Source: Cedecea neteri (lineage in GTDB: Bacteria > Pseudomonadota > Gammaproteobacteria > Enterobacterales > Enterobacteriaceae). From it: 64,000 nt of DNA. The translations under genes were made by a program, and so were the position numbers. Of the stretch, positions 13,558-48,772 are shown piece by piece (positions within the stretch are counted from its first letter, which is position 1; each line of letters begins with the position of its first letter). Location: positions 3,658,001 through 3,722,000 of the forward strand of contig NZ_CP009459.1 of the NCBI RefSeq assembly GCF_000758325.1, written 5' to 3'. Below the pieces are notes generated by a model. The model was not told the DNA's origin. It saw nothing but the letters and a program-made list of their open reading frames with translations, and made no database searches.

Positions 13558-14421
<864 letters not shown>

Positions 14422-14436
14422 TTATCAGGTGTGAAC

Positions 14437-15246: not shown

Positions 15247-15248
15247 AC

Positions 15249-15638: not shown

Positions 15639-15658
15639 AATGTCTGTTCCTTAATAAG

Positions 15659-29007: not shown

Positions 29008-30444
29008 TCAGCGAGCCGCGCTGTTCGGGTAAGTCGTCGCCGCCGGCAAAACACGTTTATCCAGTCGGTGTAACCCGTAATAGAGTGCTGCGGTGCCAAA
29101 CCAGCCGATGATCCACGACACGTCGTTGCCGTCGAAGAGCCACGTCAGCGAACCGTGGAAAAGCGGGTTCTCAATGAACGGCAGTTGAATCAGTACCCCG
29201 ACGATATAAACCCCTATGCCAAACAGGTTCCAGCGGCCATAGCGCTTATCGGCGTCAAACAGCGCGGGAATATCTACGGCTCGGGATGAAATAAAGAAGT
29301 AGTCGGTCAGGCTAATGGCGCTCCACGGCACAAAGAAGGCCAGCAGGAAAAGCAGGAAATGGGTGAAGTGTTTCAGGAATGCCGGTTCACTCAGCAGCGC
29401 AATAATGCAGGAAGCCGCCACCATCAGCACCACAAACAGAATGCGGTTCTTCTGGCTCAGGATCACCTGCTTGCGGAATCCGGACACAATGGTGGTCAGC
29501 GACATAAAGCTGCCGTACGCGTTCAACGTGGTAAAAGTAATTTTGCCGAAGCAGATAGCAAAATAAATCAGCATCGCCATGGTTTCGGTTTTGCCCAGCC
29601 CCACAATATAGCCAACCTCGTGGCCGGAAAAAGCACTCCCGGCTATGGCAGCGGTGATAACCCCCAGCGTCATCGAAGCCTGAGTCCCCAGCACGGTGCC
29701 GCTAAACACCGAGAAAAACACCTTCGGGCCTGACACGTCTCGCGGCAGATAGCGCGAGTAATCGGAAACATAGGGGCAAAAGGCAATTTGCCAGGAAGAG
29801 GACAGCGACACAGCCAGCAAAAACATTGGCATGGAGAAGTGGTTATTTTGCAAAATGGCCGCGAGATCGGTGTTGAACAGCAGCGATCCAAACAGCCAGG
29901 CAAAAGCCAGCACGCCGACAATACTGGCGACCTTCCCGAGCTTATGAATTACCCGATAACCAAGCACGGCAATGACGATAATAATGGCGCTAAACAGGAT
30001 CATCCCGCTGACATCGCTGATCGACAGCAAATGCGCCATCGCCTGCCCCGCCAGCACGGTGCCGCTGGCAGAAAACCCGATATACATAATGCACACCAGC
30101 ACCAGCGGAATCACCGCCCCGTAAACACCAAACTGCGCCCGGGAGATGATCATCTGCGGCAGGCCAAGACGCGGCCCCTGCAAAGCGTGGAAGGACATGA
30201 TCGATGCCCCCAGAATCTGCCCTACAAACAACCCCACCAGCGACCAGACTACATCGCCGCCCAGCACCACGGCCAGCGCGCCGGTGACAATCGCTGTGAT
30301 CTGCAAATTGCCGCCGAACCAAAGGGTAAACTGGCTAAACGGATGCCCGTGACGCTCCCCGTCCGGGATGTAATCGATAGATCGGGTCTCGCTCAGACGT
30401 GAGCCCTTTTTTGACTGTTCTTCTGTGGATGAAAAGGAAGACAT
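29008..30444 (-). CDS. NCS1-family (CodB-type) permease, probable Hut-regulon transporter
   Basis: A 478-residue inner-membrane permease of the nucleobase:cation symporter-1 family (cytosine, purine, thiamine, allantoin type) with about 12 TM segments; the family region PFSQFTLWFGGNLQITAIVTGA opens the domain. The start MSSFSSTEEQ follows GAGGT; the frame is open to 30489. Upstream at 30506-30515 is the same TGTATATACA operator as before hutU, within an 18-base identity, so HutC probably represses it. As I recall, Pseudomonas hut loci also contain a CodB-like gene beside hutU, so urocanate or histidine uptake is more likely than cytosine uptake. The substrate is inferred, not shown. Confidence 0.85.
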   Translation of the reverse strand: MSSFSSTEEQSKKGSRLSETRSIDYIPDGERHGHPFSQFTLWFGGNLQITAIVTGALAVVLGGDVVWSLVGLFVGQILGASIMSFHALQGPRLGLPQMIISRAQFGVYGAVIPLVLVCIMYIGFSASGTVLAGQAMAHLLSISDVSGMILFSAIIIVIAVLGYRVIHKLGKVASIVGVLAFAWLFGSLLFNTDLAAILQNNHFSMPMFLLAVSLSSSWQIAFCPYVSDYSRYLPRDVSGPKVFFSVFSGTVLGTQASMTLGVITAAIAGSAFSGHEVGYIVGLGKTETMAMLIYFAICFGKITFTTLNAYGSFMSLTTIVSGFRKQVILSQKNRILFVVLMVAASCIIALLSEPAFLKHFTHFLLFLLAFFVPWSAISLTDYFFISSRAVDIPALFDADKRYGRWNLFGIGVYIVGVLIQLPFIENPLFHGSLTWLFDGNDVSWIIGWFGTAALYYGLHRLDKRVLPAATTYPNSAAR

Positions 30445-30503
30445 AACGACCTCGCTGAACCTGATTAAACGCCGGAAAACCCATCGCACATCAAATGATC
30501 ACT

Positions 30504-30520
30504 CATGTATATACAAGCAA
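30504..30520. promoter_or_regulatory. HutC-type operator before the NCS1 permease
   Basis: Core TGTATATACA palindrome at 30506-30515. The extended sequence TCATGTATATACAAGCAA is identical to the one before hutU (44963-44980). It lies about 62 bases upstream of the permease start. Confidence 0.7.
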
Positions 30521-33042: not shown

Positions 33043-33114
33043 CGGAGGGTATTCCACTCGTTGGGTAATTGAGGCTGAGTGGTAGCGCTGGCGCGCAGGT
33101 TCCCCGACAAAGGT

Positions 33115-33143
33115 GAAAAAACCACGCCGAAGTGTGGGTGGTT
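33115..33143 (-). terminator. Terminator between the SDR gene and the Cif homologue
   Basis: On the minus strand AACCAC/GTGGTT encloses a C(TTCG)G hairpin, followed by TTTTT, 15-40 bases past the SDR stop. It isolates the Cif-like gene from the SDR transcript. Confidence 0.7.
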
Positions 33144-33157
33144 CGGGACAAACGTGC

Positions 33158-33957: not shown

Positions 33958-35325
33958 CTAACGCGTTAGCTGCTTCAAAACCTGCGCGAAGTCCGCTTTG
34001 ATCTCTGCGTCTTTCTCATGTCGCCCTTGACGGATCACCCATTTCCCGCCAGTCATAACGTCTTTGATTGGGTTAGAAGAGCAGGCAAAAATCCAGCGAT
34101 TCAACAGCTCGCTATCTTTCGCTGTCGCCAGGAACGGATCGTCCCCGTCCAGCACCAACCAGTCGGCCCTCGCCCCTACGGCCAGCTCACCAATGTTTTG
34201 CCCTAGCGCCATGCGCCCGCCGCGCAGCGCTCCCTGATAAAGCACGTTGCCGACATAAGGCTCCGCCTCAAGGTGAAGCAAATTGCGGCGGCGGTTATTC
34301 AGCCGCTGGCCGTATTCAAACCAGCGTAAATCCTCGCTCACGCTGACGCTGATATGGCTGTCGGAGCCAATGCCCCAGTTGCCGCCCTGCTGCAAAAACG
34401 CCTGCCCAGGGAAAATGCCGTCCCCGAGATTCGCTTCGGTGGTCAAACACAACCCGGCGACTGCGCCAGAATCAGCCATAAGCCGCGTTTCGCTTTCGGT
34501 GATGTGCGTGGCATGAATCAGGCACCAGCGTTCATCGACGGGCATATTGTCATACAGCCACTCGACGGGACGCAGCCCGGACCAGGCGAGGCAGTCCGCC
34601 ACCTCTTTCTGCTGCTCGGAAATATGAATGTGCACAGGTTGGGGTTGCGTCTGGCTCGCCAGCACAATATGCATTTGTTCCGGCGTCACGGCGCGCAGCG
34701 AGTGGAAGCACAGCCCTGCGCGCTGCATCGGTTCCGGAGCAAGCGCCGTGGTGATACTGTCGTACAGTTTCAGGTAGCTGTCGGTGTCGTTAATAAAGCG
34801 GCGCTGCCCCGCCGAAGCGGGCTGCCCCCCGAACCCGGAATGCGTATACAGCACCGGGAGCAGCGTCAGGCCAATGCCGACGTTTTTTGCGGCCTGAGCC
34901 ACGCGCAGCGCCAGCTCCGCAGGCTGTGCGTAGGCTTTGCCGTCCACATTGTGATGCAGATAGTGAAACTCGGCCACCGAGGTATAGCCGGCTTTCAACA
35001 TTTCGATATACAGATAGCTGGCGATGGTCTCCAGCTGTTCCGGGGTGATTTTGCCCACCAGGCGATACATGAGATCGCGCCACGTCCAGAAGCTGTCTGC
35101 CGGGTCGCCAACCACTTCCGTTAGCCCCGCCATCGCCCGCTGAAAAGCGTGCGAATGCAGGTTCGGCATCCCCGGCACGACAACGCCGCCCAGGCGGATA
35201 TCACCTTCATCCGGCACGCAGTCAGCTGCCACTGAATGAATGACGCCCTCGGGCGAAACGCCCATTCTGACATTTTCCGCCCAGCCCTGCGGCAGAAGCG
35301 CTTTTGCCGCAAAATATACCGCCAT
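33958..35325 (-). CDS. hutF: Formimidoylglutamate deiminase HutF
   Basis: Converts N-formimino-glutamate to N-formyl-glutamate and ammonia in the five-step histidine pathway. The 455-residue amidohydrolase has the metal motif LHSHAFQRAMAG (HxH at 56-58), later metal ligands in HIHISEQ and GSDSHIS, and a C-terminal beta-sandwich segment. HutF needs HutG of the N-formylglutamate deformylase type, which is encoded at 47975-48772, so the locus is internally consistent. It is divergent from hutC across a double HutC-type operator. Confidence 0.95.
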   Translation of the reverse strand: MAVYFAAKALLPQGWAENVRMGVSPEGVIHSVAADCVPDEGDIRLGGVVVPGMPNLHSHAFQRAMAGLTEVVGDPADSFWTWRDLMYRLVGKITPEQLETIASYLYIEMLKAGYTSVAEFHYLHHNVDGKAYAQPAELALRVAQAAKNVGIGLTLLPVLYTHSGFGGQPASAGQRRFINDTDSYLKLYDSITTALAPEPMQRAGLCFHSLRAVTPEQMHIVLASQTQPQPVHIHISEQQKEVADCLAWSGLRPVEWLYDNMPVDERWCLIHATHITESETRLMADSGAVAGLCLTTEANLGDGIFPGQAFLQQGGNWGIGSDSHISVSVSEDLRWFEYGQRLNNRRRNLLHLEAEPYVGNVLYQGALRGGRMALGQNIGELAVGARADWLVLDGDDPFLATAKDSELLNRWIFACSSNPIKDVMTGGKWVIRQGRHEKDAEIKADFAQVLKQLTR

Positions 35326-35354: not shown

Positions 35355-35380
35355 TGTATATACATGCATGTATATATACA
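35355..35380. promoter_or_regulatory. Double HutC-type operator between hutF and hutC
   Basis: Two palindromes lie side by side: TGTATATACA (35355-35364) and TGTATATATACA (35369-35380). They lie 30 bases upstream of the hutF start and 53 upstream of the hutC start, fitting repression of hutF and autorepression of hutC, relieved by urocanate. Confidence 0.75.
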
Positions 35381-35432: not shown

Positions 35433-36194
35433 ATGGCACAAAACGACGTTTTTAAAGCAGCGGCAGAGACCGACAATCTGGACCAGCCGGCCCCCTATTA
35501 TGAAAGGGTCAAAATCATTATTAAGACCAATATTCATAGTGGATTGTGGCCAGTAAACTACCGCGTTCCCTCCGAAAGCGAACTGGTGAATCAGTTTGGC
35601 TACAGTCGCATGACCATCAACCGCGCCCTGCGCGAGCTGACCGCTGAAGGTCTGCTGGTGCGTATGCAGGGTATCGGGACTTTCGTCGCCGAAGTGCGCG
35701 GGCAGTCCGCGCTGCTGGAAATCAACAATATTGCCGACGAAATTGCCAGCCGCGGCCATCGCCATCACGCCCGCGTGCTGGAACTGACTCAAGTTTATGC
35801 CGATGCGCAGCAGGCCATGGCCTTCAACTTACCCAAAGGCAGCCGCCTGTTCCACTCGCTGATTTGCCACTACGAAAACGGCGTCCCGGTGATGCTGGAA
35901 GACCGCCTGGTGAACTCGCTGATCGTGCCGGATTACTTCCAGCAGGATTTTACCCGCATCACGCCCAACGCCTATCTCTCGTCCATCGCGCCCATCGTTG
36001 AAGGCGAGCATATTATTGAGGCGGTAAACGTGCCTCGCGAAGAGTGTGCTTATCTGGAAATCGACGAACACACGCCTTGCCTGCAGGTCAATCGCCGCAC
36101 CTGGACCGGCCGCCAGAATAAAAAAATCGTCACCAGCGTGCGTCTGGTTTACCCGGGTTCGCGCTACCGCCTCGAAGGAAGCATGCACAAATGA
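35433..36194 (+). CDS. hutC: Histidine-utilisation repressor HutC
   Basis: GntR-family repressor of hut genes that releases DNA on binding urocanate. The 253 residues have the N-terminal winged helix (about 20-90: YERVKIIIKTNIHSGLWP, VPSESELVNQFGYSRMTINR) and a C-terminal UTRA ligand domain (about 110-245). It overlaps hutD by 4 bases (ATGA). Matching palindromes before four transcription units suggest its regulon extends to the permease, the ABC operon and hutUIG. Confidence 0.95.
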   Translation: MAQNDVFKAAAETDNLDQPAPYYERVKIIIKTNIHSGLWPVNYRVPSESELVNQFGYSRMTINRALRELTAEGLLVRMQGIGTFVAEVRGQSALLEINNIADEIASRGHRHHARVLELTQVYADAQQAMAFNLPKGSRLFHSLICHYENGVPVMLEDRLVNSLIVPDYFQQDFTRITPNAYLSSIAPIVEGEHIIEAVNVPREECAYLEIDEHTPCLQVNRRTWTGRQNKKIVTSVRLVYPGSRYRLEGSMHK

Positions 36195-36745
36195 TCCAGC
36201 TTCTGCCCTATGAGCAGTGCCCGGAAATGCCCTGGAAAAACGGCCAGGGCGTGACGAGGGAGATTTATCGCTTTCCGGCCACGGATTGCTACGACTGGCG
36301 TATTTCGGTGGCCACCATCCGCCAGGACGGCCCCTTTTCTCTTTTTTCAGGCTATCTGCGCAATATCAGCGTGCTGGAAGGCGAAGGCATGACTCTCACC
36401 GTCGACGGTGAACAAAGCGCACTTATTCCGCCTTTCCAGGCCACGGATTTTAGCGGCGACAGCGAAGTCAGCTGTACGATTGTCGGCGGGCCGCTGCTGG
36501 ACTTTAACGTCATCTATAAGGCAGACACCACCCAAGCCACGGTAAGCTGGCTGCGGGAAGGCACCTGGGCGCACCAGCAGGGTACACAGCTGCTGTTTAA
36601 TGCCGGTGGCGTTCTGGAGCTTGAGGTCAACGGTGAACGCCAGGTTTTACAGCACTACGACAGCCTGTTGATTAGCGCCCCGGCCACGATCAGCGTGGTT
36701 TCCTCTGCCTCTTCCCTCTTCGCCCGCGTTACCCTTTCGGCATAA
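36191..36745 (+). CDS. hutD: HutD/Ves-family cupin
   Basis: A 184-residue HutD-family protein with a bicupin-like fold. Typical pieces are MPWKNGQGVTREIYRFP at the N-terminus and WRISVATIRQDGPFSLFSGYLRNISVLEG. In Pseudomonas HutD is thought to limit hut expression or sense urocanate or formylglutamate; the mechanism is not settled. It is translationally coupled to hutC, the usual hutCD pairing. Confidence 0.92.
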   Translation: MIQLLPYEQCPEMPWKNGQGVTREIYRFPATDCYDWRISVATIRQDGPFSLFSGYLRNISVLEGEGMTLTVDGEQSALIPPFQATDFSGDSEVSCTIVGGPLLDFNVIYKADTTQATVSWLREGTWAHQQGTQLLFNAGGVLELEVNGERQVLQHYDSLLISAPATISVVSSASSLFARVTLSA

Positions 36746-36771
36746 AAAAACCGGCAGACTGGCTGCCGGTT
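36743..36771 (-). terminator. Terminator of the leftward ABC/lyase/CoA operon
   Basis: AACCGGCAG/CTGCCGGTT 9-bp stem with a 5-base loop; on the minus strand it continues into a run of T. It lies 17 bases past the enoyl-CoA hydratase stop. On the plus strand the tail is poor, so hutD is weakly served by it. Confidence 0.85.
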
Positions 36772-36787
36772 ACAACGCTATTTTACT

Positions 36788-37549
36788 TCATCGCCCCTTA
36801 AACTCGGGCGATTGCTTATTTTTAAACGCCGCCAGCCCCGCGGCCCGGTCTTCACTGTCGGCAATTAACGCAGAGAGCGATCTCTCGTAGGCCACGCCCG
36901 CGCTAAGCGGCATTTCGTAGCTGGCCGCCACGGCTTTTTTTATCATCATCGCGGCAAGCGGCGCGGCTTTTGCCACCTGAGTTGCCAGCGCTAAAGCCTG
37001 CTCTTCCAGCGCATCCGTCACGCGGCTGACAAGCCCTGCATATAGCGCTTCCTGTGCGTCGATTCTTCTGCCGCTTAACAGCATGTCCATCGCCAGTGAT
37101 TTGCCCACGGCGCGCACCAGCCGCTGCGTCCCGCCCGCACCGGGGATAATCCCGATGTGGCTTTCCGGCAGGCCAAAGACGGCGCTCGAATCGGCGATAA
37201 TAATGTCGCACAGCAGCGCCAGCTCCAGGCCGCCACCGAGGGCGTAGCCAGACACGGCGGCAATCAGCGGCGTTTCAATGCTCGCCACCCGGTCCCACTT
37301 CTCGCTGAACCCGCTGCGCCATAATGTTGTCGCCGACGCAGACGCCAGCGTGCCGGTATCCGCCCCGGCAGAAAAGGCTTTGGGGGAGCCAAGCAAAACA
37401 ATCGCCCTGACGTCCGGTCGCCCGTCCAGCTCGGTTAAGGTGCCAAGCAGCTCATCAAGCATCTCAGCCGTGAGCGCGTTGTATTTCTGTGGCCGGTTGA
37501 GCGTCACCACCGCAACCGCACCGTCAACGTGAGAAAGGATATCACTCAT
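36788..37549 (-). CDS. Enoyl-CoA hydratase/isomerase (crotonase) family protein
   Basis: A 253-residue crotonase expected to add water to a 2,3-unsaturated acyl-CoA. The oxyanion-hole segments AFSAGAD and SGYALGGGLELAL are present, and the first catalytic Glu lies in LPESHIGIIPGAGGTQRL. The second catalytic Glu (in SLAMEMVL of mammalian hydratase) is Asp here (SLAMDMLL). It is the last gene of the leftward operon, overlapping the dehydrogenase gene by 8 bases. With the CoA-transferase and the dehydrogenase it makes a CoA activation-hydration-oxidation set, perhaps for an imidazole acrylate. Confidence 0.85.
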   Translation of the reverse strand: MSDILSHVDGAVAVVTLNRPQKYNALTAEMLDELLGTLTELDGRPDVRAIVLLGSPKAFSAGADTGTLASASATTLWRSGFSEKWDRVASIETPLIAAVSGYALGGGLELALLCDIIIADSSAVFGLPESHIGIIPGAGGTQRLVRAVGKSLAMDMLLSGRRIDAQEALYAGLVSRVTDALEEQALALATQVAKAAPLAAMMIKKAVAASYEMPLSAGVAYERSLSALIADSEDRAAGLAAFKNKQSPEFKGR

Positions 37550-38435
37550 GCTTCTCTCCCCCGGTCAGTTGCCTGACGATGTCGTCACGATGGCGCATTC
37601 CGGCGGCGGCGGTCTCTGCGGTCCACGCATAGAAGCCCTCCCCGCTTTTCGCGCCGAGTTTTCCGTCGGCCACTTTGGCTTTCAGCCACGCCGGGAGTTC
37701 ACCGCTGTTATCCAACGCGGGCAATAAAATACCGGCCACTTTCTCTACCGTATCCAGCCCGGCAAAATCCATTAGCTTCATCGGCCCCATCGCCGCCCAG
37801 CGGGGAGCCAGCGTGCGTTGCACCGCCCGGTCTACGTCCTCCACGGAGCCGATCCCGGCATCTACCAGATAAAGCGCCTCGCGCAGCATCGCGTACTGCA
37901 GCCGGTTGATAATAAAGCCCGGTATATCCTGGTTAACGACGATCGTCTCTTTCCCCAGCTGCTGGCAGATGTCCCGCACGTTCTGGCAGATGTCATCTCC
38001 GGTCTGTTCCCCACGCACAATCTCGATCATCGGCATGGTATCCGCCGGGTTAAACCAGTGCATACCGATCAGCCGCTGCGGCTGGTTCAAGGCCGAGGCC
38101 AGCAGCGTGATAGACACGCTTGAAGTGTTCGTCGTGATAACGCAATGCTCGCCCACCAGGTGCTCGACATCCTTCAGCACACGCTGCTTGAGCGCCACGT
38201 CTTCGGCAACGTTCTCGGACACCAGGTCAGCACCGCTCAGACAAGCCTCAAAGGAGGTGGTGAACTCTACGGCTTCACCAGCGCCGAGGGATGCCACAAT
38301 GGCTCGCGCTTTATCGAGCGTCGACTCAGAGCGCGACCACAGGCTAACGCGGTAGCCCGCACGCGCCATCACCACGGCGATGCGCGCGCCCATTGTTCCG
38401 GCCCCGATCACCGCCACTTTCTTTATTTGCACCAT
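37542..38435 (-). CDS. 3-hydroxyacyl-CoA dehydrogenase family protein
   Basis: A 297-residue NAD-dependent dehydrogenase of the 3-hydroxyacyl-CoA dehydrogenase family (beta-oxidation, hydroxybutyryl-CoA and carnitine dehydrogenase type). It has the Rossmann loop VAVIGAGTMGARIA, the catalytic His in IGMHWFNPADTMPMIEIV and the C-terminal helical domain (about 185-290). The start MVQIKKVAVIG is used; the frame is open to 38537 but overlaps the upstream gene. It follows the CoA-transferase by 16 bases and overlaps the hydratase by 8, so it should act between CoA activation and chain cleavage. No thiolase is present in the window. Confidence 0.86.
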   Translation of the reverse strand: MVQIKKVAVIGAGTMGARIAVVMARAGYRVSLWSRSESTLDKARAIVASLGAGEAVEFTTSFEACLSGADLVSENVAEDVALKQRVLKDVEHLVGEHCVITTNTSSVSITLLASALNQPQRLIGMHWFNPADTMPMIEIVRGEQTGDDICQNVRDICQQLGKETIVVNQDIPGFIINRLQYAMLREALYLVDAGIGSVEDVDRAVQRTLAPRWAAMGPMKLMDFAGLDTVEKVAGILLPALDNSGELPAWLKAKVADGKLGAKSGEGFYAWTAETAAAGMRHRDDIVRQLTGGEKHE

Positions 38436-38451
38436 TTGCGTTCTCCGCCGG

Positions 38452-39648
38452 TTAAATGACGCCCTGCGCCTTGAGCTGCGCCAGCGTTGCCTCGTCGATA
38501 GCCAGTAATTCTCGCAGCACGCTGGCCGTATGCTCACCCAGCGCAGGCGGCACCAGCGCAGGCTCGGCTTGCATGGCGCTCATTTTCACCGGCTGCGGAA
38601 CAATAGAGATGGTGCCTGCCGTCGGGTGCGTCACCTGCTTCACGAGTTCGCGTTCTTTCGCATAGTCGCTGGTCAGAATCTGGTCGAGACGCAGCACGGC
38701 TGAAGCCGGGACGCCCGCGTGGTCCAGAATGGCCTGAGCATCGTTCACCGTTTTATCCGCCAGCCAGCGTTCAATTTCTTCCCGCAAGGGCCGCTGGTTC
38801 GCCAGGCGCAGCGGGTCGGTGAGATACAGCGGATCGCTTGCCAGTTCGGGCTTATTCATCGCCGAGCAAAGCTGGCGGAAAAGCTTATCGTTGGCGACAG
38901 CAATGACGATGTGGCCATCCTGCGCCGGATAGCTGTCCATCGGCGCGCTGATGGGGTGCGCGTTGCCCAGCCGCCCGGCGGAAGGCTGCCCGCCGATCCA
39001 TTGAGTCAGGGAAACCATTTGCATCGTCACCATGGTGTCGAGCATTGAGACATCAAGATGCTGCCCTTTGCCGCTGATCCCGCGCTGCAGCAGTGCCGCG
39101 AGCACCGCCCAGCTGCCGTACAGCCCGGCCACAACGTCCCCAATGGCATCGCCGACGCGGGTTGGCTCCCCTTCTGCCCAGCCGGTGACCTGCATGATGC
39201 CGCCGTAGGCCTGCACGATATGGTCGTAGGCGGCTTTGTGCGCCATCGCCCCGTGCTGCCCAAACCCGGAAATACTGGCGTAAACCAGCCTCGGGTTGAT
39301 TTCCTGCAGCGTCGCATAGTCGATGCCGAGGCGTTTGGTTACGCCCGGACGGAAGTTCTCCACCAGCACGTCGGCCTGCGCCACCAGTTGCTTAAGAATA
39401 GCTAGCCCCTCCGGAGCCTTTAAATCCAGGGTAACGCTTTTCTTGCCATGGTTAAGCTGCATGAAGTAGCTGCTTTCCCCGCCGATATGCGGAGTGAAAC
39501 TGCGCGAGTCATCCCCGCTGCCCGGCATCTCAATCTTGATGACGTCCGCCCCGAGATCGTTCAGCAGCGAGGCGCACCACGGTCCGGCCAGCACGCGGGA
39601 TAAATCAAGCACTCTGACGCCTTTCAGCGGCTGTAAAGCTTCACTCAT
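38452..39648 (-). CDS. CaiB/BaiF-type (class III) CoA-transferase
   Basis: A 398-residue family III CoA-transferase like CaiB, BaiF and formyl-CoA transferase, which moves CoA between carboxylic acids through an Asp-anchored mixed anhydride. The N-terminal LDLSRVLAGPWCASLL, the segment VENFRPGV and the catalytic Asp171 (GDAIGDVVAGLY) are intact. Its start overlaps the end of the HutH-like lyase gene by 8 bases, so the two are coupled, which suggests that the lyase product (or its acid) is the CoA acceptor. Carnitine-type substrates are the main alternative. Confidence 0.88.
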   Translation of the reverse strand: MSEALQPLKGVRVLDLSRVLAGPWCASLLNDLGADVIKIEMPGSGDDSRSFTPHIGGESSYFMQLNHGKKSVTLDLKAPEGLAILKQLVAQADVLVENFRPGVTKRLGIDYATLQEINPRLVYASISGFGQHGAMAHKAAYDHIVQAYGGIMQVTGWAEGEPTRVGDAIGDVVAGLYGSWAVLAALLQRGISGKGQHLDVSMLDTMVTMQMVSLTQWIGGQPSAGRLGNAHPISAPMDSYPAQDGHIVIAVANDKLFRQLCSAMNKPELASDPLYLTDPLRLANQRPLREEIERWLADKTVNDAQAILDHAGVPASAVLRLDQILTSDYAKERELVKQVTHPTAGTISIVPQPVKMSAMQAEPALVPPALGEHTASVLRELLAIDEATLAQLKAQGVI

Positions 39649-41200
39649 GTTCGGACTCCTCAGCCAGGGCGAGCAGCCGCTGGCTCAGCTCACCTTCAGC
39701 AATCAAATCGCGCACGGCATGCATATCCGGATAAAGCGCCGTGTCGGTCTCACGGAACGGCACGCGGGCGCGCACCATGCCCAGCGTTAACTCCGCGCCA
39801 ACCGAGGCGCGAAGCGGGCGGTGAAACTCCAGCGCCTGGCTGGCGCACAGCAGTTCGATGGCAACGATATCCACCGCGTTGCTCACCGCCAGCATGGCTT
39901 TGCGCGCCGAAGAGACGCCCATGCTGATATGGTCTTCCTGCCCGGCACAGGTGGTGACGGTGTGCACGCTCGACGGCGCGGCCAGGCTGCGGTTATCCCC
40001 CGCCAGCGCGGCGGCCACGTAAGGCGGGATCATCATCCCGGAGTTCGCGCCGCTTCTGCCGACCAGGAACGCAGGCAGACCGCTAAGATGCACGTTGGTA
40101 ATACGATCCGAGCGTGCCTGAGACGCCGTGCTGACCTGGGCAATGGCGACAGCCAGAGAATCCAGCGCCAGCGCCAGCGGGGCACCGTGCCCGTTGCCGC
40201 CGGGCAGAATAACCAGCGCGTCTTCTTCGATGAGAAAGACCGGGTTATCGGTCATCGAGTTGAGTTCGATAGTCACAATCTGGCGGCAATGGGCGAGCTG
40301 GTCGCGCACCGCGCCGTGAATTTGCGGAATACAGCGCAGGCTGAGTGCATCCTGCACCCGATGGTCGCGGTAACGGGCAAAGATCTCGCTGCCGCTCAGC
40401 AGACGGCGAAGAATCGCGGCGGTTTTCTGCTGCCCGTCATGCGGACGGAGGGCATGCAGCCGGGCGTCATAGCCCCGGGTATTGCCCTTTAATGCTTCCA
40501 GGCACATGCCGCCGGCCATGTCCGCCACCGGCAGCAGCCGCTCAAAATCATGCACGGCAAGGCACGCCAGGCCAGTGATTTCGTAGGTGCCGCTGATCAG
40601 CGCATGGCCTTCGCGCGGGCCAGGCACTCGGGGAGCGATCCCCGCTTTTGCCAAAACCTCAGCAGACGGCAGAAGCTCGCCCTGATACCAGCACTGCCCT
40701 TCGCCAAACAGAGACAGCCCGATATGCGCCGTCGCAATTAAATAGCCGACCGAGCCGCTGGCCGGTGACCACGGTGTCACCTGCCGGTTAAGCATTTCGG
40801 CCATGCGCTTCGCCAGCTCAGCGCTGACGCCGCTGTAGCCCTGCAGCAGGGACTTCAGCATCACCGCCATCATGGCGCGCACTTCACGCACCGACAAATC
40901 TGGCCCCATCCCGCAGGCGTGGCTGCGCAGCATATTGAGCTGCACGCTGGCGATCTGGTCGGCAGAAAGGCGCTCCGTGACCAGGTCACCTACCCCGGTG
41001 GTCAGGCCGTAGATCACCTGCCCCTCATCTATTGCCCGTCGAATATACCCGCTAACGTGGTCCATATTCGCCAGCGCCTCAGGGGCCAGTTCGACCGGCG
41101 CCCCGTCGGCAATGCGCACCAGCTCGTCAATCGTGGTTTGCGCCCTGCCTAAGGTAACGGTTTCATGGGAACGCGCGGTGGAGCCAGTTTGTCTTGTCAT
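39641..41200 (-). CDS. HutH-fold lyase without MIO motif (candidate ergothionase / histidine-betaine lyase)
   Basis: A 519-residue aromatic amino-acid lyase homologue. Tyr64 (IYGLTTG), His94 (RSHACG), Arg289 (SLRCIPQ) and the Glu of QEDHISM match catalytic positions of histidine ammonia-lyase (Tyr53, His83, Arg283, Glu414). But where HAL has GSVGASGDL this protein reads PASGSVGYL: aligned on the downstream His, Ser-Val-Gly (150-152) takes the place of the MIO-forming Ala-Ser-Gly. Val151 to Ser203 is 52 residues, as Ser143 to Asn195 in HAL, so Asn195 is Ser. HAL Tyr280 and Phe329 are Leu and Gly. It thus cannot be ordinary HutH. Ergothionase is a known MIO-free member that removes trimethylamine from ergothioneine; the adjacent betaine-type importer supports such a substrate. 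Databases may label it hutH. Confidence 0.75.
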   Translation of the reverse strand: MTRQTGSTARSHETVTLGRAQTTIDELVRIADGAPVELAPEALANMDHVSGYIRRAIDEGQVIYGLTTGVGDLVTERLSADQIASVQLNMLRSHACGMGPDLSVREVRAMMAVMLKSLLQGYSGVSAELAKRMAEMLNRQVTPWSPASGSVGYLIATAHIGLSLFGEGQCWYQGELLPSAEVLAKAGIAPRVPGPREGHALISGTYEITGLACLAVHDFERLLPVADMAGGMCLEALKGNTRGYDARLHALRPHDGQQKTAAILRRLLSGSEIFARYRDHRVQDALSLRCIPQIHGAVRDQLAHCRQIVTIELNSMTDNPVFLIEEDALVILPGGNGHGAPLALALDSLAVAIAQVSTASQARSDRITNVHLSGLPAFLVGRSGANSGMMIPPYVAAALAGDNRSLAAPSSVHTVTTCAGQEDHISMGVSSARKAMLAVSNAVDIVAIELLCASQALEFHRPLRASVGAELTLGMVRARVPFRETDTALYPDMHAVRDLIAEGELSQRLLALAEESEHE

Positions 41201-41209
41201 CGTACGCCC

Positions 41210-42094
41210 TTACTTGCTCAGACCATGTTTAACCAGCCACTGATGCGCAACGTCATCAATGCTGGCAAATTCCGCAAGCTGCCCGTTCATGGCGATCAGG
41301 TCTGCGGTGGTTAACTGGGCCGAAACTTTGTTCAACGTGCCCTCAATGGTCGGATTCAACGTAGTAGTGGCCACAATCGGGACGATGTTTTGCGCCGCAA
41401 ACAGGTTTTTCGGATCGGCCAGCGCCACCAGATGGTCTTTCTGAATTTCCGGCGTGGTGGAGGTTAAATCCGCCGCCTGAATTTGGTTATTTTTCAGCGC
41501 GGTCAGCGTCAGCGGGCCCGCGACATCCAGTACTTTGAAGCTCTTGAAGTTCAGGCCATACACTTCTTTCAGCCCCGGCACGCCTTCGTGACGCGTTTTC
41601 CATTCAGCCGGGCCGCCCAGAATAAGCTCTGCCGCATGAGGCTTCAGGTCTTCAATGGTTTTGAGGTTGTACTTATCCGCCGTTTTTTTGGTAACGGCGA
41701 TAACGTCGCTGTTTTGCGCCACGGAGGTATTCAGCATTTTCACTTTGGCCGGCAGCTTCGCCGCCAGCGCGGTCGCCACTTCGTCGGAGCTGTGCGCTTT
41801 ATTATTGGCATCCAGGTAGCTCAGCAGCGCGCCGCTGTACTCCGGGATAACGTTAATGGATCCGTCCAGCAGGGCCGGAATGTAAACCTCACGGCTGCCG
41901 ATGTTGAGCTTCTTCTCCACCGGGATGTTCTGCGCTTCCAGCGCACCGGCGTAAATCGTCGCCAGCAGCTGGTTTTCCGGAAAATCAGCCGAGCCAATAA
42001 TCACCTTCTGCCCCGCATCTGCCGCCCACGCGGAGGAAACAACGGACAGCATCGCGGCACTCAACAGCGTCAAACAACGTTTCTTCATATTCAT
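41210..42094 (-). CDS. Betaine-type (OpuC/HutX-like) ABC transporter substrate-binding protein
   Basis: A 294-residue periplasmic binding protein of the OpuAC/OpuC (glycine betaine/choline/carnitine) class. The signal peptide (MNMKKRCLTLLSAAMLSVVSSAWA) is followed by the domain signature VIIGSADFPENQLLATIYAGALE. I choose ATG 42094 six bases after GGTG; a GTG at 42103 is the longest option. Such proteins bind quaternary ammonium groups with an aromatic cage; EgtU of this class binds ergothioneine. It lies between the permease genes and the lyase gene (9-base gap), so the lyase probably acts on its cargo. Confidence 0.87.
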   Translation of the reverse strand: MNMKKRCLTLLSAAMLSVVSSAWAADAGQKVIIGSADFPENQLLATIYAGALEAQNIPVEKKLNIGSREVYIPALLDGSINVIPEYSGALLSYLDANNKAHSSDEVATALAAKLPAKVKMLNTSVAQNSDVIAVTKKTADKYNLKTIEDLKPHAAELILGGPAEWKTRHEGVPGLKEVYGLNFKSFKVLDVAGPLTLTALKNNQIQAADLTSTTPEIQKDHLVALADPKNLFAAQNIVPIVATTTLNPTIEGTLNKVSAQLTTADLIAMNGQLAEFASIDDVAHQWLVKHGLSK

Positions 42095-42127
42095 CGCTTT
42101 CACCTTGTGTAATTAACGGGCTCAACA

Positions 42128-42808
42128 TCACTGGGTTTTGATACGTCGGGAAATGCCGTGGGACACCACGTACTTCACCGAAAGGGAAAAGAACACATCC
42201 ACGAGCAGCGCCAGAATGGCAACCAGTACCGCACCGGCGGTCATCTGGGCAAAATCGTTCGCCGCGCGACCGTCGATAATCAACCGCCCCAGGCCGCCAA
42301 GCGAGACGTAGGCCGCAATGGTGGCGGTAGAGATAATTTGCAGCGTGGCGCTGCGAATACCGGACAGAATCAACGGCGTGGCGCAGGGCAGCTCCACCTG
42401 AGTCAGCACCTGGAACGGCGTCAGGCCGATGCCTTTGGCGGCATCGTGCACGCTGGGGTCAACGGAGCGAATCCCCGCATGCACACCCAGCGCTATTGGC
42501 GGCAGGGCTAATACCACCAGCACGATAATGCACGGCAGAATAAAGGCCATGTCGGACTCGAAGTAGCCCGCCATCAGAATAACCAGCAGGATAATCAGGC
42601 CAAACGACGGCAGGGAACGCAGCGCGTTGGTGGTGCCAATCAGCAGCGCTTCCCCTTTGCCGGTATGGCCGGTGTAGCAGCCCACCGGAAACGCGATGGC
42701 TATCGCTATCGCCAGCGCCACCGCGCTGTAGCCGATATGCTGCGCCAGCAGCGGAAGAATACCGTCGTCGCCATACCAGTGGCTGAGCGTAAAGAACCAG
42801 TCAGACAT
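42128..42808 (-). CDS. Betaine-type ABC transporter permease (second)
   Basis: A 226-residue inner-membrane permease of the OpuC/ProW type with five or six TM segments. The EAA-like loop (DPSVHDAAKGIGLTPFQVLTQVELP) contacts the ATPase. It begins 3 bases after the first permease gene and is followed by the binding-protein gene. Two separate permeases of this class in one operon are usual for OpuC/OsmU-like importers. Confidence 0.9.
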   Translation of the reverse strand: MSDWFFTLSHWYGDDGILPLLAQHIGYSAVALAIAIAIAFPVGCYTGHTGKGEALLIGTTNALRSLPSFGLIILLVILMAGYFESDMAFILPCIIVLVVLALPPIALGVHAGIRSVDPSVHDAAKGIGLTPFQVLTQVELPCATPLILSGIRSATLQIISTATIAAYVSLGGLGRLIIDGRAANDFAQMTAGAVLVAILALLVDVFFSLSVKYVVSHGISRRIKTQ

Positions 42809-42811
42809 ACT

Positions 42812-43456
42812 TTATCCCCTTGTTGGCTGCCAGCGGCTTAATGAGCGGGTGACGGCCACAACCACGCAGTCGAGCACGAAAGCCAGCACGATACACAGCA
42901 CGATGCCGGCAATAATTGGCGTCAGAAACTGCAGCTGAAACCCCTGAGTAAACAGCGACCCGAGCTGCGGGGCGCCGATCAGCGCGGCGACGGAAACAAT
43001 GCTGACGTTAGAAACCACGGCAACCCGCATCCCCGAGCCAATTACCGGCACCGCCAGCGGCAAATCAACCTGGAAAAACTGGTGCATCGGCTTATAGCCG
43101 AGGGCAAAAGCAGACTGCCGGGTGTCGGTGGGCACCGAATCCAGCCCGTCACACACGGTTCTGACCAGCAGCGCAAAGCTATAAATCGTCAGTGCCACCA
43201 CCACGTTGATCGGGTCGAGGATCTGCGTGCCGAGCAGCGGCGGTAGCAGTACAAACAGCGCCAGGGACGGGATGGTATAGAGCAGCCCGAACAGGTTAAG
43301 AATCACGCCCTTTACGCGCGGCATGCTGCTCACCAGCCAGCCAGCCGGAATCGCCAGCAGCAGGCCAATCAGGATCGGCGTCACAGAGAGGTAGAGATGC
43401 CACAGCAGCAAATGGAAAATTTTGTCGCTCTGCGCCCACAGCCAGTCAAATCTCAT
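42812..43456 (-). CDS. Betaine-type ABC transporter permease (first)
   Basis: A 214-residue permease paralogous to the next gene. It starts MRFDWLWAQSDKIF with an ATGA overlap with the ATPase gene stop, so an apparent longer frame (to 43558) is not used. The EAA-like loop reads DTRQSAFALGYKPMHQFFQVDLP. Both permeases should form the membrane channel of the importer. Confidence 0.9.
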   Translation of the reverse strand: MRFDWLWAQSDKIFHLLLWHLYLSVTPILIGLLLAIPAGWLVSSMPRVKGVILNLFGLLYTIPSLALFVLLPPLLGTQILDPINVVVALTIYSFALLVRTVCDGLDSVPTDTRQSAFALGYKPMHQFFQVDLPLAVPVIGSGMRVAVVSNVSIVSVAALIGAPQLGSLFTQGFQLQFLTPIIAGIVLCIVLAFVLDCVVVAVTRSLSRWQPTRG

Positions 43457-44550
43457 ACCGCCTCCCGCGCCATCGACTTGCAGGCATCCAGGACGTGATC
43501 CAGCCCCAGAGTACCCAGCACTTCTGCCCGCTCGCCAATCACCACCGCCCGGTGACACGGCGAGCTGAGCGCGGAGTCAAGCATCTGGCGCAGCGTGCCG
43601 GTTTGGGGGAAGAAGGTCGCGCCCAGATTAATGTGCTCCGGCACCACCGCCTCAACCTGCTGGTGCGTATCAAACCAGCCGCAGGCTTTGCCTTCGCGGG
43701 TCACCAGCAGCCAGCGCTGCACCGCAATGTTGCGCGCCATATCAATAGGCGTGCCCACTTCGGCGGTCGGCTCCGTCTGCATTGAGGCCAGCGGCCCGGA
43801 ATTGTAGAAACTCAGCTTGCGATAGCCGCGGTCGCGGCCAATAAAGTCGGCAACAAAATCACTCTGCGGGGCGTTAAGCAGCTCACCCGGGGACGCCATC
43901 TGCCCCAGCTTGCCGCCGGGCTTCAGGACCGCAACCAGATCGCCCAGCTTCATGGCTTCATCGATATCGTGGGTCACCATAATGATGGTTTTACTCACTT
44001 CCTTTTGAATGCGGAGAAACTCTTCTTGCAGCTGGTCACGCACCACCGGGTCCACGGCGCTAAAAGGTTCATCCATCAGCATGAACTCCGGGTCAGCGGC
44101 CAGCGCTCTGGCAACCCCTACACGCTGCTGCTGGCCACCGGAAAGTTGCCACGGATAGCGTTTTGCCAGCTGCGGGGCCAGGCCGACAACTTCCAGCAGT
44201 TCCCCTGCTCTCGCACGGGCTTTGGCCTTAGGCATGCCGTTGAGGATTGCGGTGGTAGCAATGTTGTCGATGATGTTTCGGTGCGGGAACAGGCCCGCAT
44301 TCTGGATAACGTAGCCAATACGGCGGCGCAGCTGCACCACGTCCATAGCCGAGGTGGATTCACCGTTAAGAAGGATGTCGCCGGAGGACGGCTCAATCAG
44401 CCGATTAATCATGCGTAGTGACGTTGTTTTCCCACAACCGGAAGGGCCTACCAGCACGGTGATCTTGCCGCCGGGTGCGGTGAGATTCAGTCCATCCACC
44501 ACGACCGTGCCGTCGTCATAAAACTTGGTCACATTGTTGAAAGTAATCAT
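43453..44550 (-). CDS. Betaine-type ABC transporter ATPase (OpuCA/ProV-like)
   Basis: A 365-residue ATPase that powers the importer. Walker A is VGPSGCGKTTS, the signature is LSGGQQQRVGVARAL and Walker B is FMLMDEPFSAVDP. The C-terminal about 110 residues form a CBS-like regulatory part. It is the first gene of the leftward operon; GAGGCG precedes the ATG by seven bases, and a HutC-type palindrome lies 67 bases upstream. The order ATPase-permease-permease-binding protein is that of OpuC/OsmU systems; HutV of Pseudomonas and Sinorhizobium hut loci is the same class. Confidence 0.92.
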   Translation of the reverse strand: MITFNNVTKFYDDGTVVVDGLNLTAPGGKITVLVGPSGCGKTTSLRMINRLIEPSSGDILLNGESTSAMDVVQLRRRIGYVIQNAGLFPHRNIIDNIATTAILNGMPKAKARARAGELLEVVGLAPQLAKRYPWQLSGGQQQRVGVARALAADPEFMLMDEPFSAVDPVVRDQLQEEFLRIQKEVSKTIIMVTHDIDEAMKLGDLVAVLKPGGKLGQMASPGELLNAPQSDFVADFIGRDRGYRKLSFYNSGPLASMQTEPTAEVGTPIDMARNIAVQRWLLVTREGKACGWFDTHQQVEAVVPEHINLGATFFPQTGTLRQMLDSALSSPCHRAVVIGERAEVLGTLGLDHVLDACKSMAREAV

Positions 44551-44616: not shown

Positions 44617-44630
44617 ATTGTATGTACAAT
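44617..44630. promoter_or_regulatory. HutC-type operator of the ABC/lyase operon
   Basis: ATTGTATGTACAAT is a palindrome (ATTGTA/TACAAT) that shares the TGTAT-TACA core with the hutU and hutF operators. It lies 67 bases upstream of the ATPase start. Confidence 0.6.
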
Positions 44631-44963: not shown

Positions 44964-44980
44964 CATGTATATACAAGCAA
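44964..44980. promoter_or_regulatory. HutC-type operator of hutUIG
   Basis: Core TGTATATACA at 44966-44975, in an 18-base stretch identical to the operator of the NCS1 permease gene. It lies about 71 bases upstream of the hutU start. Confidence 0.75.
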
Positions 44981-45045
44981 ACGAAAAAATGACATGGTAT
45001 TTTTCGTGAGCACTTTCCCCGTTATCTCAAAACAAGGTGAACCCC

Positions 45046-46722
45046 ATGAAGAGTGAGTTTTCTCGTTATCGTGATGTTGAAATCAGGGCGCCACGCGGCA
45101 CGAAGCTGAATGCAAAAAGCTGGCTGACGGAAGCCCCGCTGCGCATGCTGATGAATAATCTCGATCCGGACGTGGCTGAAAACCCAAAAGAACTGGTGGT
45201 TTATGGCGGCATTGGCCGGGCGGCGAGAAACTGGGAGTGCTACGACAAAATGGTCGAAGCGCTTAAGGCCCTGAATGAAGATGAAACCCTGCTGGTGCAG
45301 TCCGGCAAGCCGGTTGGCGTCTTTAAAACCCACGCCAACGCCCCTCGCGTGCTGATTGCCAACTCTAACCTGGTGCCGCACTGGGCTAACTGGGAACACT
45401 TCAATGAGCTGGATGCAAAAGGCCTGGCGATGTATGGCCAGATGACCGCCGGGTCGTGGATCTACATCGGCAGCCAGGGCATTGTGCAGGGCACCTATGA
45501 AACCTTCGTAGAAGCAGGCCGCCAGCACTACAATGGCTCGCTAGCCGGGCGCTGGGTACTCACTGCGGGCCTCGGCGGCATGGGCGGCGCACAGCCGCTG
45601 GCCGCTACCCTTGCCGGGGCCTGTTCACTGAACATTGAATGCCAGCAGTCACGCATCGACTTCCGCCTGCGCACCGGTTATGTCGACGAGCAGGCCAAAG
45701 ATCTGGACGACGCCCTCGCCCGCCTCAAACGCTACACCGACGAAGGGAAAGCCGTTTCTATCGCCCTGCACGGCAATGCGGCAGAAATTCTGCCTGAACT
45801 GGTGAAGCGCGGCGTGCGCCCTGACATGGTCACCGACCAGACCAGCGCCCACGATCCGCTCAACGGCTACCTGCCAATTGGCTGGAGCTGGGAAGAGTAC
45901 CGCGAGCGCGCAGCCGTTGAGCCTGCGGTGGTCACTCAGGCGGCGAAAGCCTCCATGGCAGAACACGTTAAAGCAATGCTCGCCTTCCAGCAGCAGGGCA
46001 TTCCTACCTTTGATTACGGCAACAACATCCGCCAGATGGCCAAAGAGATGGGCGTCAGCAACGCCTTTGATTTCCCGGGCTTTGTGCCCGCTTATATTCG
46101 CCCGCTGTTCTGCCGCGGGATCGGGCCTTTCCGCTGGGCCGCGCTGTCCGGCAACCCGGAAGATATCTACCGCACCGATGCCAAAGTCAAAGAACTTATT
46201 CCTGACGACAAGCACCTGCACCGCTGGCTGGACATGGCCAAAGAGCGCATAAGCTTCCAGGGCCTGCCAGCGCGTATCTGCTGGGTCGGCCTCGGCCAGC
46301 GCGCAAAACTGGGCCTGGCGTTTAACGAAATGGTCAGAAGCGGCGAACTGTCTGCCCCTATCGTCATTGGCCGCGATCACCTTGATTCCGGTTCGGTGGC
46401 AAGCCCGAACCGCGAAACTGAATCAATGCAGGATGGCTCCGATGCCGTGTCCGACTGGCCGCTGCTGAACGCCCTGCTGAACACGGCCAGCGGCGCGACC
46501 TGGGTTTCCCTGCACCATGGTGGAGGCGTCGGCATGGGCTTCTCACAGCACTCCGGCATGGTTATTGTCTGCGACGGCACCGACGAAGCGGCAGAGCGTA
46601 TTGCTCGCGTGCTGAACAACGATCCGGCCACCGGCGTGATGCGCCACGCGGATGCGGGCTATGATATTGCTATTGAGTGCGCCAAAGAGCACGGCCTGAA
46701 CCTGCCAATGCTGGCGAAGTAG
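45046..46722 (+). CDS. hutU: Urocanate hydratase HutU
   Basis: NAD-dependent urocanase that hydrates urocanate to imidazolone propionate. With ATG 45046 ([10 protein letters not shown], six bases after AAGGTG) it has 558 residues, the family length. The glycine-rich NAD region [15 protein letters not shown], the active-site segment [13 protein letters not shown] and [17 protein letters not shown] are intact. It heads the rightward hutUIG operon under a HutC-type operator. Since the window has no ordinary hutH, its urocanate must come from a hutH elsewhere or from the MIO-free lyase acting on a histidine betaine. Confidence 0.97.
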
Positions 46723-46773
46723 TTCCCCTGGGGTGCGGCTTTCGCCGTGCCCCGTCCTGATGAGAGAGATCTT

Positions 46774-47982
46774 ATGCGGATTTTATGGCGTAACTGCCGC
46801 ATCACCACCATGGTCAATGGCCAGTACAATATTATCGAAGGCGCGGCGATGCTGACCGAAGGCAACAAAATTGCCTGGATTGGCCCCGAAAGCCAGCGCC
46901 CAAATCAGCCCCATGACGAAGAGCGCGATCTTCAGGGCAAACTCGTCACCCCTGGCCTTATCGACTGCCACACCCATAGCGTGTTCGGCGGCAACCGCAG
47001 CCAGGAATTTGAGATGCGCCTGAACGGTGCCACCTACGCGGATATTGCCGCGGCAGGCGGCGGGATAGCCAGCACGGTGAAGGCCACGCGTCAGGCAAGC
47101 GAAGCCGAACTGCTGGCAAGCGCCAGCCGCCGTATCAACGCATTACGCAAAGACGGCGTGACTACCCTGGAAGTGAAATCGGGCTACGGCCTCAGCTTTG
47201 ACGACGAGCGCAAAATGCTGCGCGTGGTCCGCCAGTTGGCGCAAACTCTGCCGCTGACAATTTACAGTACCTGCCTGGCTGCACACGCCCTGCCCCCGGA
47301 ATACAAAGACCGCAGCGACGACTTTATCACCGACGTTTGCGAACGTTGGTTACCTGAATTGCATCGTGAAGGGCTGGTTGACGCCGTCGATGCCTTCTGT
47401 GAACACCTGGCCTTTTCCGTGCCGCAGGTCGAACGCGTCTTTGTGAAAGCGCATGAACTGGGGCTGCCGGTTAAGCTTCATGCCGAACAGCTTTCGCTGC
47501 TGCACGGCGCGGGGCTTGCCGCCCGCCACAACGCACTTTCCGCCGACCATCTGGAATATCTCTGCGAAGACGATATTACGCTGATGGCAAAACACGGCAC
47601 GACCGCCGTGCTGCTGCCCGGCGCGTTTTACTTCCTGCGCGAAACGCAGAAGCCGCCGGTCGCGCTGCTGCGTAAGCATCACGTGCCAATGGCCATTTCC
47701 AGCGACCTGAACCCAGGCACTTCCCCGGTGCAGTCCCTGCGTTTAATGATGAACATGGCCTGTACGCTGTTTGGCCTGACGCCGGAAGAAGCACTTGCTG
47801 GCGTGACGCTAAATGCGGCGCGCGCGCTCGGGATTAGCGAGAAAACGGGCACCCTGGAAGCAGGTAAAGAAGCCAGCTTTGTTGCCTGGGAAATAGACCA
47901 TCCCGCCGAACTGAGCTACTGGCTGGGCGGCACGCTCTCCAAACAGGTTATCTATCAAGGTAAAGAGGTGTGGAATGATTAA
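46774..47982 (+). CDS. hutI: Imidazolonepropionase HutI
   Basis: Zinc amidohydrolase that opens imidazolone propionate to N-formiminoglutamate. The 402 residues start [13 protein letters not shown] after a GAGAGAG site; the frame is open to 46747. Metal and substrate motifs are [38 protein letters not shown] and [10 protein letters not shown]. It follows hutU by 51 bases and overlaps hutG by 8. Confidence 0.97.
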
Positions 47983-48772
47983 GGGCTTTGAGCTTCACCA
48001 GGGCAAGCTGCCGCTGCTGATCAGCATGCCGCATCCCGGCACGCAGTTAACGCCGGAAGTGGCAGACGGGCTGACGGCGCGGGCCAAAAAACTGGAAGAT
48101 ACCGACTGGCATATTCCCAAACTTTACCAGCCAGTACGCGAGATGGGTGCCAGCATCCTCAGCGCCAACTACTCGCGCTACGTGGTGGATTTAAACCGTC
48201 CCTCGGACGACAAGCCGCTGTACACCACGGCCACCACCGGGCTTTACCCGGACATTTTTTTCGACGGTGAACCGCTGTTCGAGGCGGGGAAATCCCCTGA
48301 TGCGCAGGCCAGAGCAGATATCCTGACCAACATCTGGCAGCCCTATCACCAGGCGCTTGCCCAGGAACTGGCAAGGCTCAAAGAAATCTTTGGCTATGCG
48401 CTGCTATGGGATGCGCATTCCATCAAATCCGTGGTACCTCGCCTGTTCGAAGGCCGCCTGCCGGATCTTAACTTCGGCACTGCGGACGGCGCCAGCTGCG
48501 ATCCGGCACTCAGCGCTGAACTGTTAAAAACCAGCGAGCATTTCAACGGCTACAGCAAAGTGCTGAATGGCCGCTTCAAGGGCGGGTACATCACTCGCCA
48601 TTACGGTGCGCCACAGCAAAATATCCATGCGGTACAGCTGGAAGTGGCGCAGTGCTGCTACATGGATGAAGAGAGTTTTGCCTGGTCAGACGATAAGGGC
48701 GCGCAATTCCAGCAGTTGCTGACCCAATTGATTGGGACCGCGCTCGATTGGGGAAAACGTCATTACGGCTAG
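47975..48772 (+). CDS. hutG: N-formylglutamate deformylase HutG
   Basis: Hydrolyses N-formylglutamate to glutamate and formate, the last step of the five-step pathway. The 265 residues belong to the N-formylglutamate amidohydrolase family ([42 protein letters not shown]), not to the arginase-like formiminoglutamase also called HutG in Klebsiella. Its pairing with HutF defines the pathway branch. Translation is coupled to hutI by an 8-base overlap. Confidence 0.95.

Follow-up and report, generated by a model that had tools for sequence, protein, structure and literature searches.

A 64,000-nt piece of a 4.66 Mb enterobacterial chromosome, referred to as the window and giving all coordinates, carries eight leftward genes at 36788-44550 that encode an ATP-binding cassette (ABC) importer, a lyase of the histidine ammonia-lyase (HutH) fold and three coenzyme A (CoA) enzymes. 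They lie between the divergent genes hutU-hutI-hutG and hutC-hutD/hutF. Sequence comparison suggests a HutC-controlled operon for the use of an alpha-N-modified histidine, with hercynine (N-trimethylhistidine) as the foremost, though still tentative, candidate substrate. The original prediction for this DNA had proposed import of ergothioneine or hercynine. The eight-gene operon was confirmed and the overall interpretation was partly supported: the evidence favours its hercynine branch and does not favour the one via ergothioneine and thiourocanate.

In the proposed pathway, the importer would take up a hercynine-like compound. The lyase, which lacks the cofactor 4-methylideneimidazole-5-one (MIO), would hold imidazole and carboxylate by HutH-type contacts, abstract the beta proton and expel the already charged amine (trimethylamine), for which the MIO electrophile would not be needed. 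Urocanate would then be converted to glutamate and formate via HutU, HutI, HutF and HutG, and would lift the HutC repression of the operon and the hut genes. The CoA-transferase, hydratase and dehydrogenase would form an optional second branch. MIO-free lyases, hut genes and OpuC-class importers are known kinds of components in a new combination. Searches of open-access literature turned up no earlier account of an operon like this one or of a lyase acting on hercynine, a weak negative as most subscription journals were outside their coverage.

The Ala-Ser-Gly (ASG) triad of MIO was deleted in the lyase, which reads GSVGY---LIATAH where HutH has GSVGASGDLAPLAH, and the alignment showed the whole lyase clade to be without it. 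With the PF00221 match, this bore out the predicted MIO-free HutH-fold lyase beside an OpuC-class importer. HutH residues Y53, S82-H83, Q277, R283 and E414 were retained, and the active-site Tyr, His, Gln, Arg and Glu were conserved in every clade row aligned. In HutH, S82-H83, R283 and E414 serve as imidazole and carboxylate contacts. Clade members of 13 genomes scored 488.7-505.2 bits with the HutH model TIGR01225, all under the cut-off of 539.15. All 13 carrier genomes checked also encoded a HutH over the cut-off, so L-histidine would already be served by a separate MIO enzyme; the ASG triad was present in the above-cut-off HutH matches from carrier genomes (16/16). Besides coexisting with a true HutH and scoring under its model, the window lyase differs from HutH in Phe329 to Gly and Tyr280 to Leu. 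The latter replacement was found in 40 of 40 triad-deleted lyases, T. denticola ergothionase included, many of these rows being close relatives. Tyr280 was retained in 95 of 95 MIO enzymes aligned, and one ACG variant also retained it. The T. denticola ergothionase (6s7j) is a trimethylamine lyase, and trimethylamine-type chemistry is suggested because triad loss goes with Tyr280 to Leu, as in that enzyme. MIO-free chemistry would favour an amine that is already a good leaving group, again as in ergothionase, which without the sulfur points to hercynine.

The product of the lyase is probably urocanate, feeding the hut pathway, as predicted originally. This reading rests on the hut linkage, a HutC operator and the co-occurrence with hutU. 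Each of the nine family-sample genomes with the lyase had hutU (in fragments in G443), compared with a background of 94 of 246. The hypergeometric p was 1.4e-4 and, by genus, 0.002, with the significance inflated by relatedness and by reduced endosymbiont-size genomes in the sample. Intact hutI was found in 8 of the 9 carrier genomes checked. Operators were detected from TTGTATATACAT, spotted near hutU; a search of its pattern gave 4 sites in 64 kb, a number reached in none of 100 shuffles. The HutC consensus TGTA-N2-TACA, as given in the available text of PMC12977541, recovered the same 4 window sites, with approximately 0.5 expected from base composition. One of these predicted operators lies at the promoter of the operon, consistent with HutC control. 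At 15 of the 24 loci searched, an exact site was found in the 450 bases preceding the importer ATPase. G550 and G623, both lacking neighbouring hut genes, are among these 15; in A. larrymoorei, a locus without the lyase, no operator was found in that interval. Pseudomonas-type hut loci with HutC share hutU, I, G, F, C and D and the TGTA-N2-TACA operators with the window, whereas the entry enzyme of the window is a lyase without MIO, accompanied by a dedicated importer and a CoA module.

All eight genes were recovered between hut genes in all eight genomes of the window genus (own included), as the original prediction had asked of other genomes, and this constant position argues that the set is not due to chance. 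This group A thus combines importer, lyase, CoA genes and hut genes. Group B, represented by the three Klebsiella/E. coli plasmids read and G593, held importer, lyase and hut genes without CoA genes; a decayed version with fragmented importer, lyase and hut genes was observed in G443 (L179). Hut genes without an MIO HutH flanked the importer-lyase core in the window genus (8/8), the plasmids (3/3), G593 and the decayed G443. Group C comprised importer, lyase and CoA genes, on plasmids of Sodalis praecaptivus, Rhizobium lusitanum, Neorhizobium, Agrobacterium, R. beringeri and Rhizobium sp. BT04 as well as in G640. Group D was reduced to importer and lyase in G623, with additional CoA-transferase fragments after the lyase in G550 (L177), where the CoA module was therefore lost. 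Group E, from Acetobacter okinawensis, had the lyase and three CoA genes, followed by hutI, hutF, hutG, hutD, hutC and a second MIO-free lyase; the importer had no match in 21 kb of this locus. Importer and lyase are accordingly a near-constant core, with hut genes and CoA genes as two separate partners. The clade was rare, with 9 of 246 family genomes and 1 of 398 phylum genomes, the latter being the window's own. The lyase was matched in 2 of 5426 E. coli genomes and, at 60-80% identity, in 179 plasmid records, not of Klebsiella alone. The binding protein was matched in 163 Klebsiella plasmid records, and one of the three plasmids read was typed conjugative.

Several results weigh against hercynine or against the hut linkage, above all the ligand pocket of the importer. 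Its residues were compared in EgtUC numbering, with ligand contacts placed by analogy to that protein (30% identity). In EgtUC, as far as the available text of PMC9732360 shows, the ligand is contacted by the cage Y341, Y419, Y443 and F293, the carboxylate-binding K242 and the invariant G244. In the binding protein, Y341, Y419 and Y443 were replaced by Asp, Thr or Leu, and Gln, respectively, and F293 by Tyr, leaving three of the four cage aromatics gone; K242 was Ala and G244 was Phe. All nine binding proteins compared from loci with the lyase (the window and eight others) had these substitutions, and so did three further rhizobial ones. Glu375 and Arg379 were retained and Arg275 and Asp243 newly present. 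Most cage residues were retained in related importers encoded at L047 (second operon) and L049. By this analogy, the pocket is not a standard trimethylammonium site and seems better suited to an imidazole amino acid whose ammonium is free. The quaternary-ammonium-type importer of the original prediction consequently stood at the family level (OpuAC) and fell at the pocket, which also weakened the 'trimethylated' substrate, with hercynine still favoured. EgtU/OpuC importers and the window share an OpuAC-type binding protein, two permeases, a ProV-type ATPase and Glu375 with Arg379, whereas the lyase-linked orthologs examined lack three cage aromatics and the carboxylate lysine. Further points on this side are the absence of methylamine genes among the operon genes (0/8) and the group C loci, which had no adjoining hutU, I, G or F. 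No operator was found within 450 bases upstream in Sodalis (twice, same plasmid) and G640, and four rhizobial loci and Aureimonas had one-mismatch sites only; HutC-like regulators of 39-42% identity were present in the four annotated rhizobial group C loci. A relative of the lyase in G021 (L045:13846-18447) lies in a hut cluster that holds both an MIO HutH and this MIO-free enzyme; it shares an operon between hutC and hutD-hutF with an amino-acid-type ABC importer (SBP_bac_3). Finally, the CoA module stays unexplained by the hut reading.

The CoA genes were linked to the lyase in the distant lineages of groups A, C and E, namely the window genus, Sodalis, rhizobia and Acetobacter, and absent from groups B and D save for the CoA-transferase remnant in G550. 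They look old and sometimes lost. CoA-dependent side-chain beta-oxidation is a known route for aryl-acrylates such as cinnamate or coumarate. Since the CoA genes follow a lyase expected to make an acrylate, beta-oxidation of the acrylate side chain as a second branch would fit, in line with the original prediction, a possibility that is doubtful at present. As in the aryl-acrylate route, CoA-activation, hydratase and dehydrogenase families stand in one operon; unlike it, the window has a CoA-transferase in place of a ligase and no thiolase in the operon. The nearest PDB entries of the three proteins were unremarkable, being small-acid CoA-transferases and generic enzymes; 4om8, nearest to the dehydrogenase, is a pyridine-aldehyde 5-dehydrogenase of the same family.

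Hercynine is kept below an even chance because the pocket suggests a free ammonium, which gives weight to a less probable, though serious, alternative. In this reading the substrate would be an imidazole amino acid bearing an N-H ammonium (for example D-histidine, or N-alpha-methyl- or dimethylhistidine) and would lose ammonia or a methylamine in an MIO-independent, E1cB-like reaction, yielding urocanate for hut. In the binding protein, Arg275 and Arg379 could hold the carboxylate, Asp/Asn339 and Asp341 occupy the place of the cage, and Asp243 and Glu375 are near the imidazole. The amino-acid-type binding protein in the L045 operon would agree with such a substrate. However, these contacts are placed by analogy to EgtUC at 30% identity, ammonia is more difficult to expel when MIO is absent, and Tyr280 to Leu is common to the known trimethylamine lyase ergothionase. 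On the supporting side, MIO-independent turnover of D-phenylalanine is reported for a phenylalanine ammonia-lyase; a literature search found no paper on this. Another proposal makes the CoA module the main route, with an aromatic betaine converted to an aryl-acrylate that is CoA-activated, hydrated, oxidised and thiolysed, and a hut linkage that is regulatory only. Lyase and CoA genes do form a set with no hut genes alongside in Sodalis, in G640 and at the rhizobial loci L047, L180, L181, L182 and L187, and the set also occurs in Acetobacter. This route is nevertheless improbable, given the retained S82-H83 imidazole motif, the hutU in all nine carriers checked and the lack of the module in the Klebsiella/E. 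coli plasmids, G593 and G623, with CoA-transferase fragments only in G550.

Import of ergothioneine followed by an ergothionase, with thiourocanate broken down by the CoA enzymes, is very unlikely, although the binding protein matched EgtUC best among PDB entries and ergothionase is likewise MIO-free, according to the available text of PMC13405746. The approximately unbiased (AU) test rejected the lyase clade and the ergothionases as one clade (p 6.3e-52), and identity was 25.6% to ergothionase 6s7j and 28-30% to ergothionase-context lyases. HutH column 386 was Tyr in all lyase-clade rows and Lys in 6s7j and three lyases from thiourocanate-hydratase loci; this lysine has a catalytic role in ergothionase. 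The binding protein is without G244, K242 and the cage. HutU, the only match in the genome, reached 691.6 bits with the thiourocanate-hydratase model (cut-off 930) and 716.4 bits with the S-methyl-thiourocanate model (cut-off 880), and is a urocanase by model score. On these grounds, neither an ergothionase identity nor the ergothioneine/thiourocanate branch of the original prediction was supported. Compared with the ergothionases of T. denticola (6s7j) and Burkholderia sp. HME13, the window lyase shares the HutH fold, the lost triad, Leu at Tyr280 (6s7j) and, as expected, an imidazole substrate class, yet belongs to a separate clade without the lysine and neighbours hutU instead of a thiourocanate hydratase. 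A redundant or inactive histidase paralogue is the least likely explanation: fold and family are those of HutH, but the active-site residues are conserved in the clade, which has its own importer and operator and has spread on plasmids.

MIO-free lyases of three clades were found, including ones in Bacillaceae and on plasmids of Klebsiella, rhizobia and Aureimonas. It is conceivable, if doubtful, that they represent an undescribed entry to histidine catabolism, in which an MIO-free lyase family converts alpha-N-modified or D-histidine to urocanate, often under HutC control and with a CoA beta-oxidation branch in some lineages. Lyases of this kind are unable to make MIO from the known triad, yet the annotated records read label them 'aromatic amino acid ammonia-lyase' or 'histidine ammonia-lyase'; the pair of MIO loss and Leu280 offers a simple sequence rule for their re-annotation. 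If the hercynine reading is true, histidine-type betaines or other modified histidines gain a direct, regulated route into hut. This route would be borne on many Klebsiella plasmid records, and trimethylamine release there would bear on gut trimethylamine sources. With a substrate that has a free N-H ammonium, the enzyme would be a natural MIO-independent histidine lyase.

The features of the locus are given in the table below. From the promoter, the operon encodes the ABC ATPase, two permeases, the binding protein, the lyase, the class III CoA-transferase, the 3-hydroxyacyl-CoA dehydrogenase and the enoyl-CoA hydratase. The Pfam scan of its open reading frames (ABC_tran, BPD_transp_1 twice, OpuAC, Lyase_aromatic, CoA_transf_3, 3HCDH and ECH_1) agreed with the families predicted originally for the packed leftward genes; the terminator is a consensus match only. 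Intergenic gaps ranged from -8 to +24 bases with the likeliest starts, or to +33 if the binding protein begins at ATG. Two listed reading frames were over-long at their starts, which are probably inner ATGs at 43456 (permease 1) and 38435 (dehydrogenase). No MIO-bearing HutH was found in the locus, the genome's own HutH being encoded elsewhere.

Table. Predicted genes, operators and terminator of the window locus (window coordinates).
Feature	Position	Strand	Evidence
ABC importer ATPase, OpuCA/ProV class	43453..44550	-	PF00005; TIGR01186 286.2 bits, under 326.6 cut-off
ABC importer permease 1 (probable inner ATG start)	42812..43456	-	PF00528
ABC importer permease 2	42128..42808	-	PF00528
Periplasmic binding protein, OpuAC family, aromatic cage lost	41210..42103	-	PF04069; EgtUC best PDB match, 92 bits
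MIO-free HutH-fold lyase	39641..41200	-	PF00221; TIGR01225 497.3 bits, under 539.15; triad deleted; AF2 (AlphaFold2) pLDDT 92.4
Class III CoA-transferase	38452..39648	-	PF02515 428 bits; PDB nearest: formyl-CoA and succinate--HMG CoA-transferases
3-Hydroxyacyl-CoA dehydrogenase family protein (probable inner ATG start)	37542..38435	-	PF02737, PF00725; PDB nearest 4om8, 200 bits
Enoyl-CoA hydratase family protein	36788..37549	-	PF00378 242 bits; PDB nearest EchA8
Terminator-like hairpin directly after last operon gene	36749..36771	-	9-pair stem and T run; consensus match only
hutU, urocanase, divergent	45037..46722	+	TIGR01228 1016.8 bits
hutI, imidazolonepropionase	46747..47982	+	TIGR01224 489 bits
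hutG, N-formylglutamate deformylase	47975..48772	+	TIGR02017 361 bits
hutD	36191..36745	+	PF05962 164 bits
hutC, histidine utilization repressor	35433..36194	+	TIGR02018 293 bits, over 220 cut-off
hutF, formimidoylglutamate deiminase	33958..35325	-	TIGR02022 684 bits
HutC-type operator TGTA-N2-TACA, ~70 bases upstream of first operon gene	44619..44628	.	consensus match
HutC-type operator before hutU	44966..44975	.	consensus match
HutC-type operator between hutF and hutC	35355..35364	.	consensus match
HutC-type operator before NCS1 permease	30506..30515	.	consensus match
NCS1-family permease	29008..30489	-	PF02133 158 bits; operator directly upstream

The NCS1-family permease is a probable member of the same regulon. 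The three Klebsiella/E. coli plasmids read each have a homologue of 52-53% identity lying between hutU and hutI. This position and the operator at the start of the window gene suggest that the window permease may transport urocanate or a similar compound. On two Agrobacterium plasmids (L184, L185), a binding protein of the same subfamily as that of the window importer (approximately 50% identity) adjoined an LLM-class flavin monooxygenase, with no lyase there.

Other MIO-free lyases were observed outside the clade of the window enzyme. The Aureimonas sp. AU20 plasmid pAU20c (L183) carried the same importer type and a complete hut cluster, whose sole annotated hutH (14142-15656) is of the second MIO-free type, without the triad (GSVGY---LTHAAAIGL) and in another clade; this pairing counts in favour of the hut reading of the window operon. 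In the lyases of L047 (5575-7221), L048 and L049, the loop was one residue shorter, the ergothionase-type lysine was present and Ala-Arg replaced the Ser-His imidazole motif. Those of L047 and L049 were accompanied by the binding proteins with a largely retained cage, and the three are possibly ergothioneine sulfonate lyases. The third clade was found in Bacillaceae (L088, L090, L092, L098 and L099), and in three Peribacillus loci with an MIO-free lyase hutU and hutI were nearby. The lyase of L092, the only locus scanned for it, adjoined a major facilitator superfamily (MFS) transporter. Flavin adenine dinucleotide (FAD) proteins beside the lyases of L092 and L098 matched N-methyl-L-tryptophan oxidase with 475.7 and 456.3 bits (cut-off 257). 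In these two scanned loci, the N-methyl amino acid oxidase would point, by analogy, to an N-methyl amino acid theme. Outside the hut genes of the window, the open reading frame at 32164-33249 gave a partial match to the cycle inhibiting factor (CIF) domain with 86 bits (cut-off 25), and CIF-domain matches were also present near hutF in sibling genomes of the window genus.

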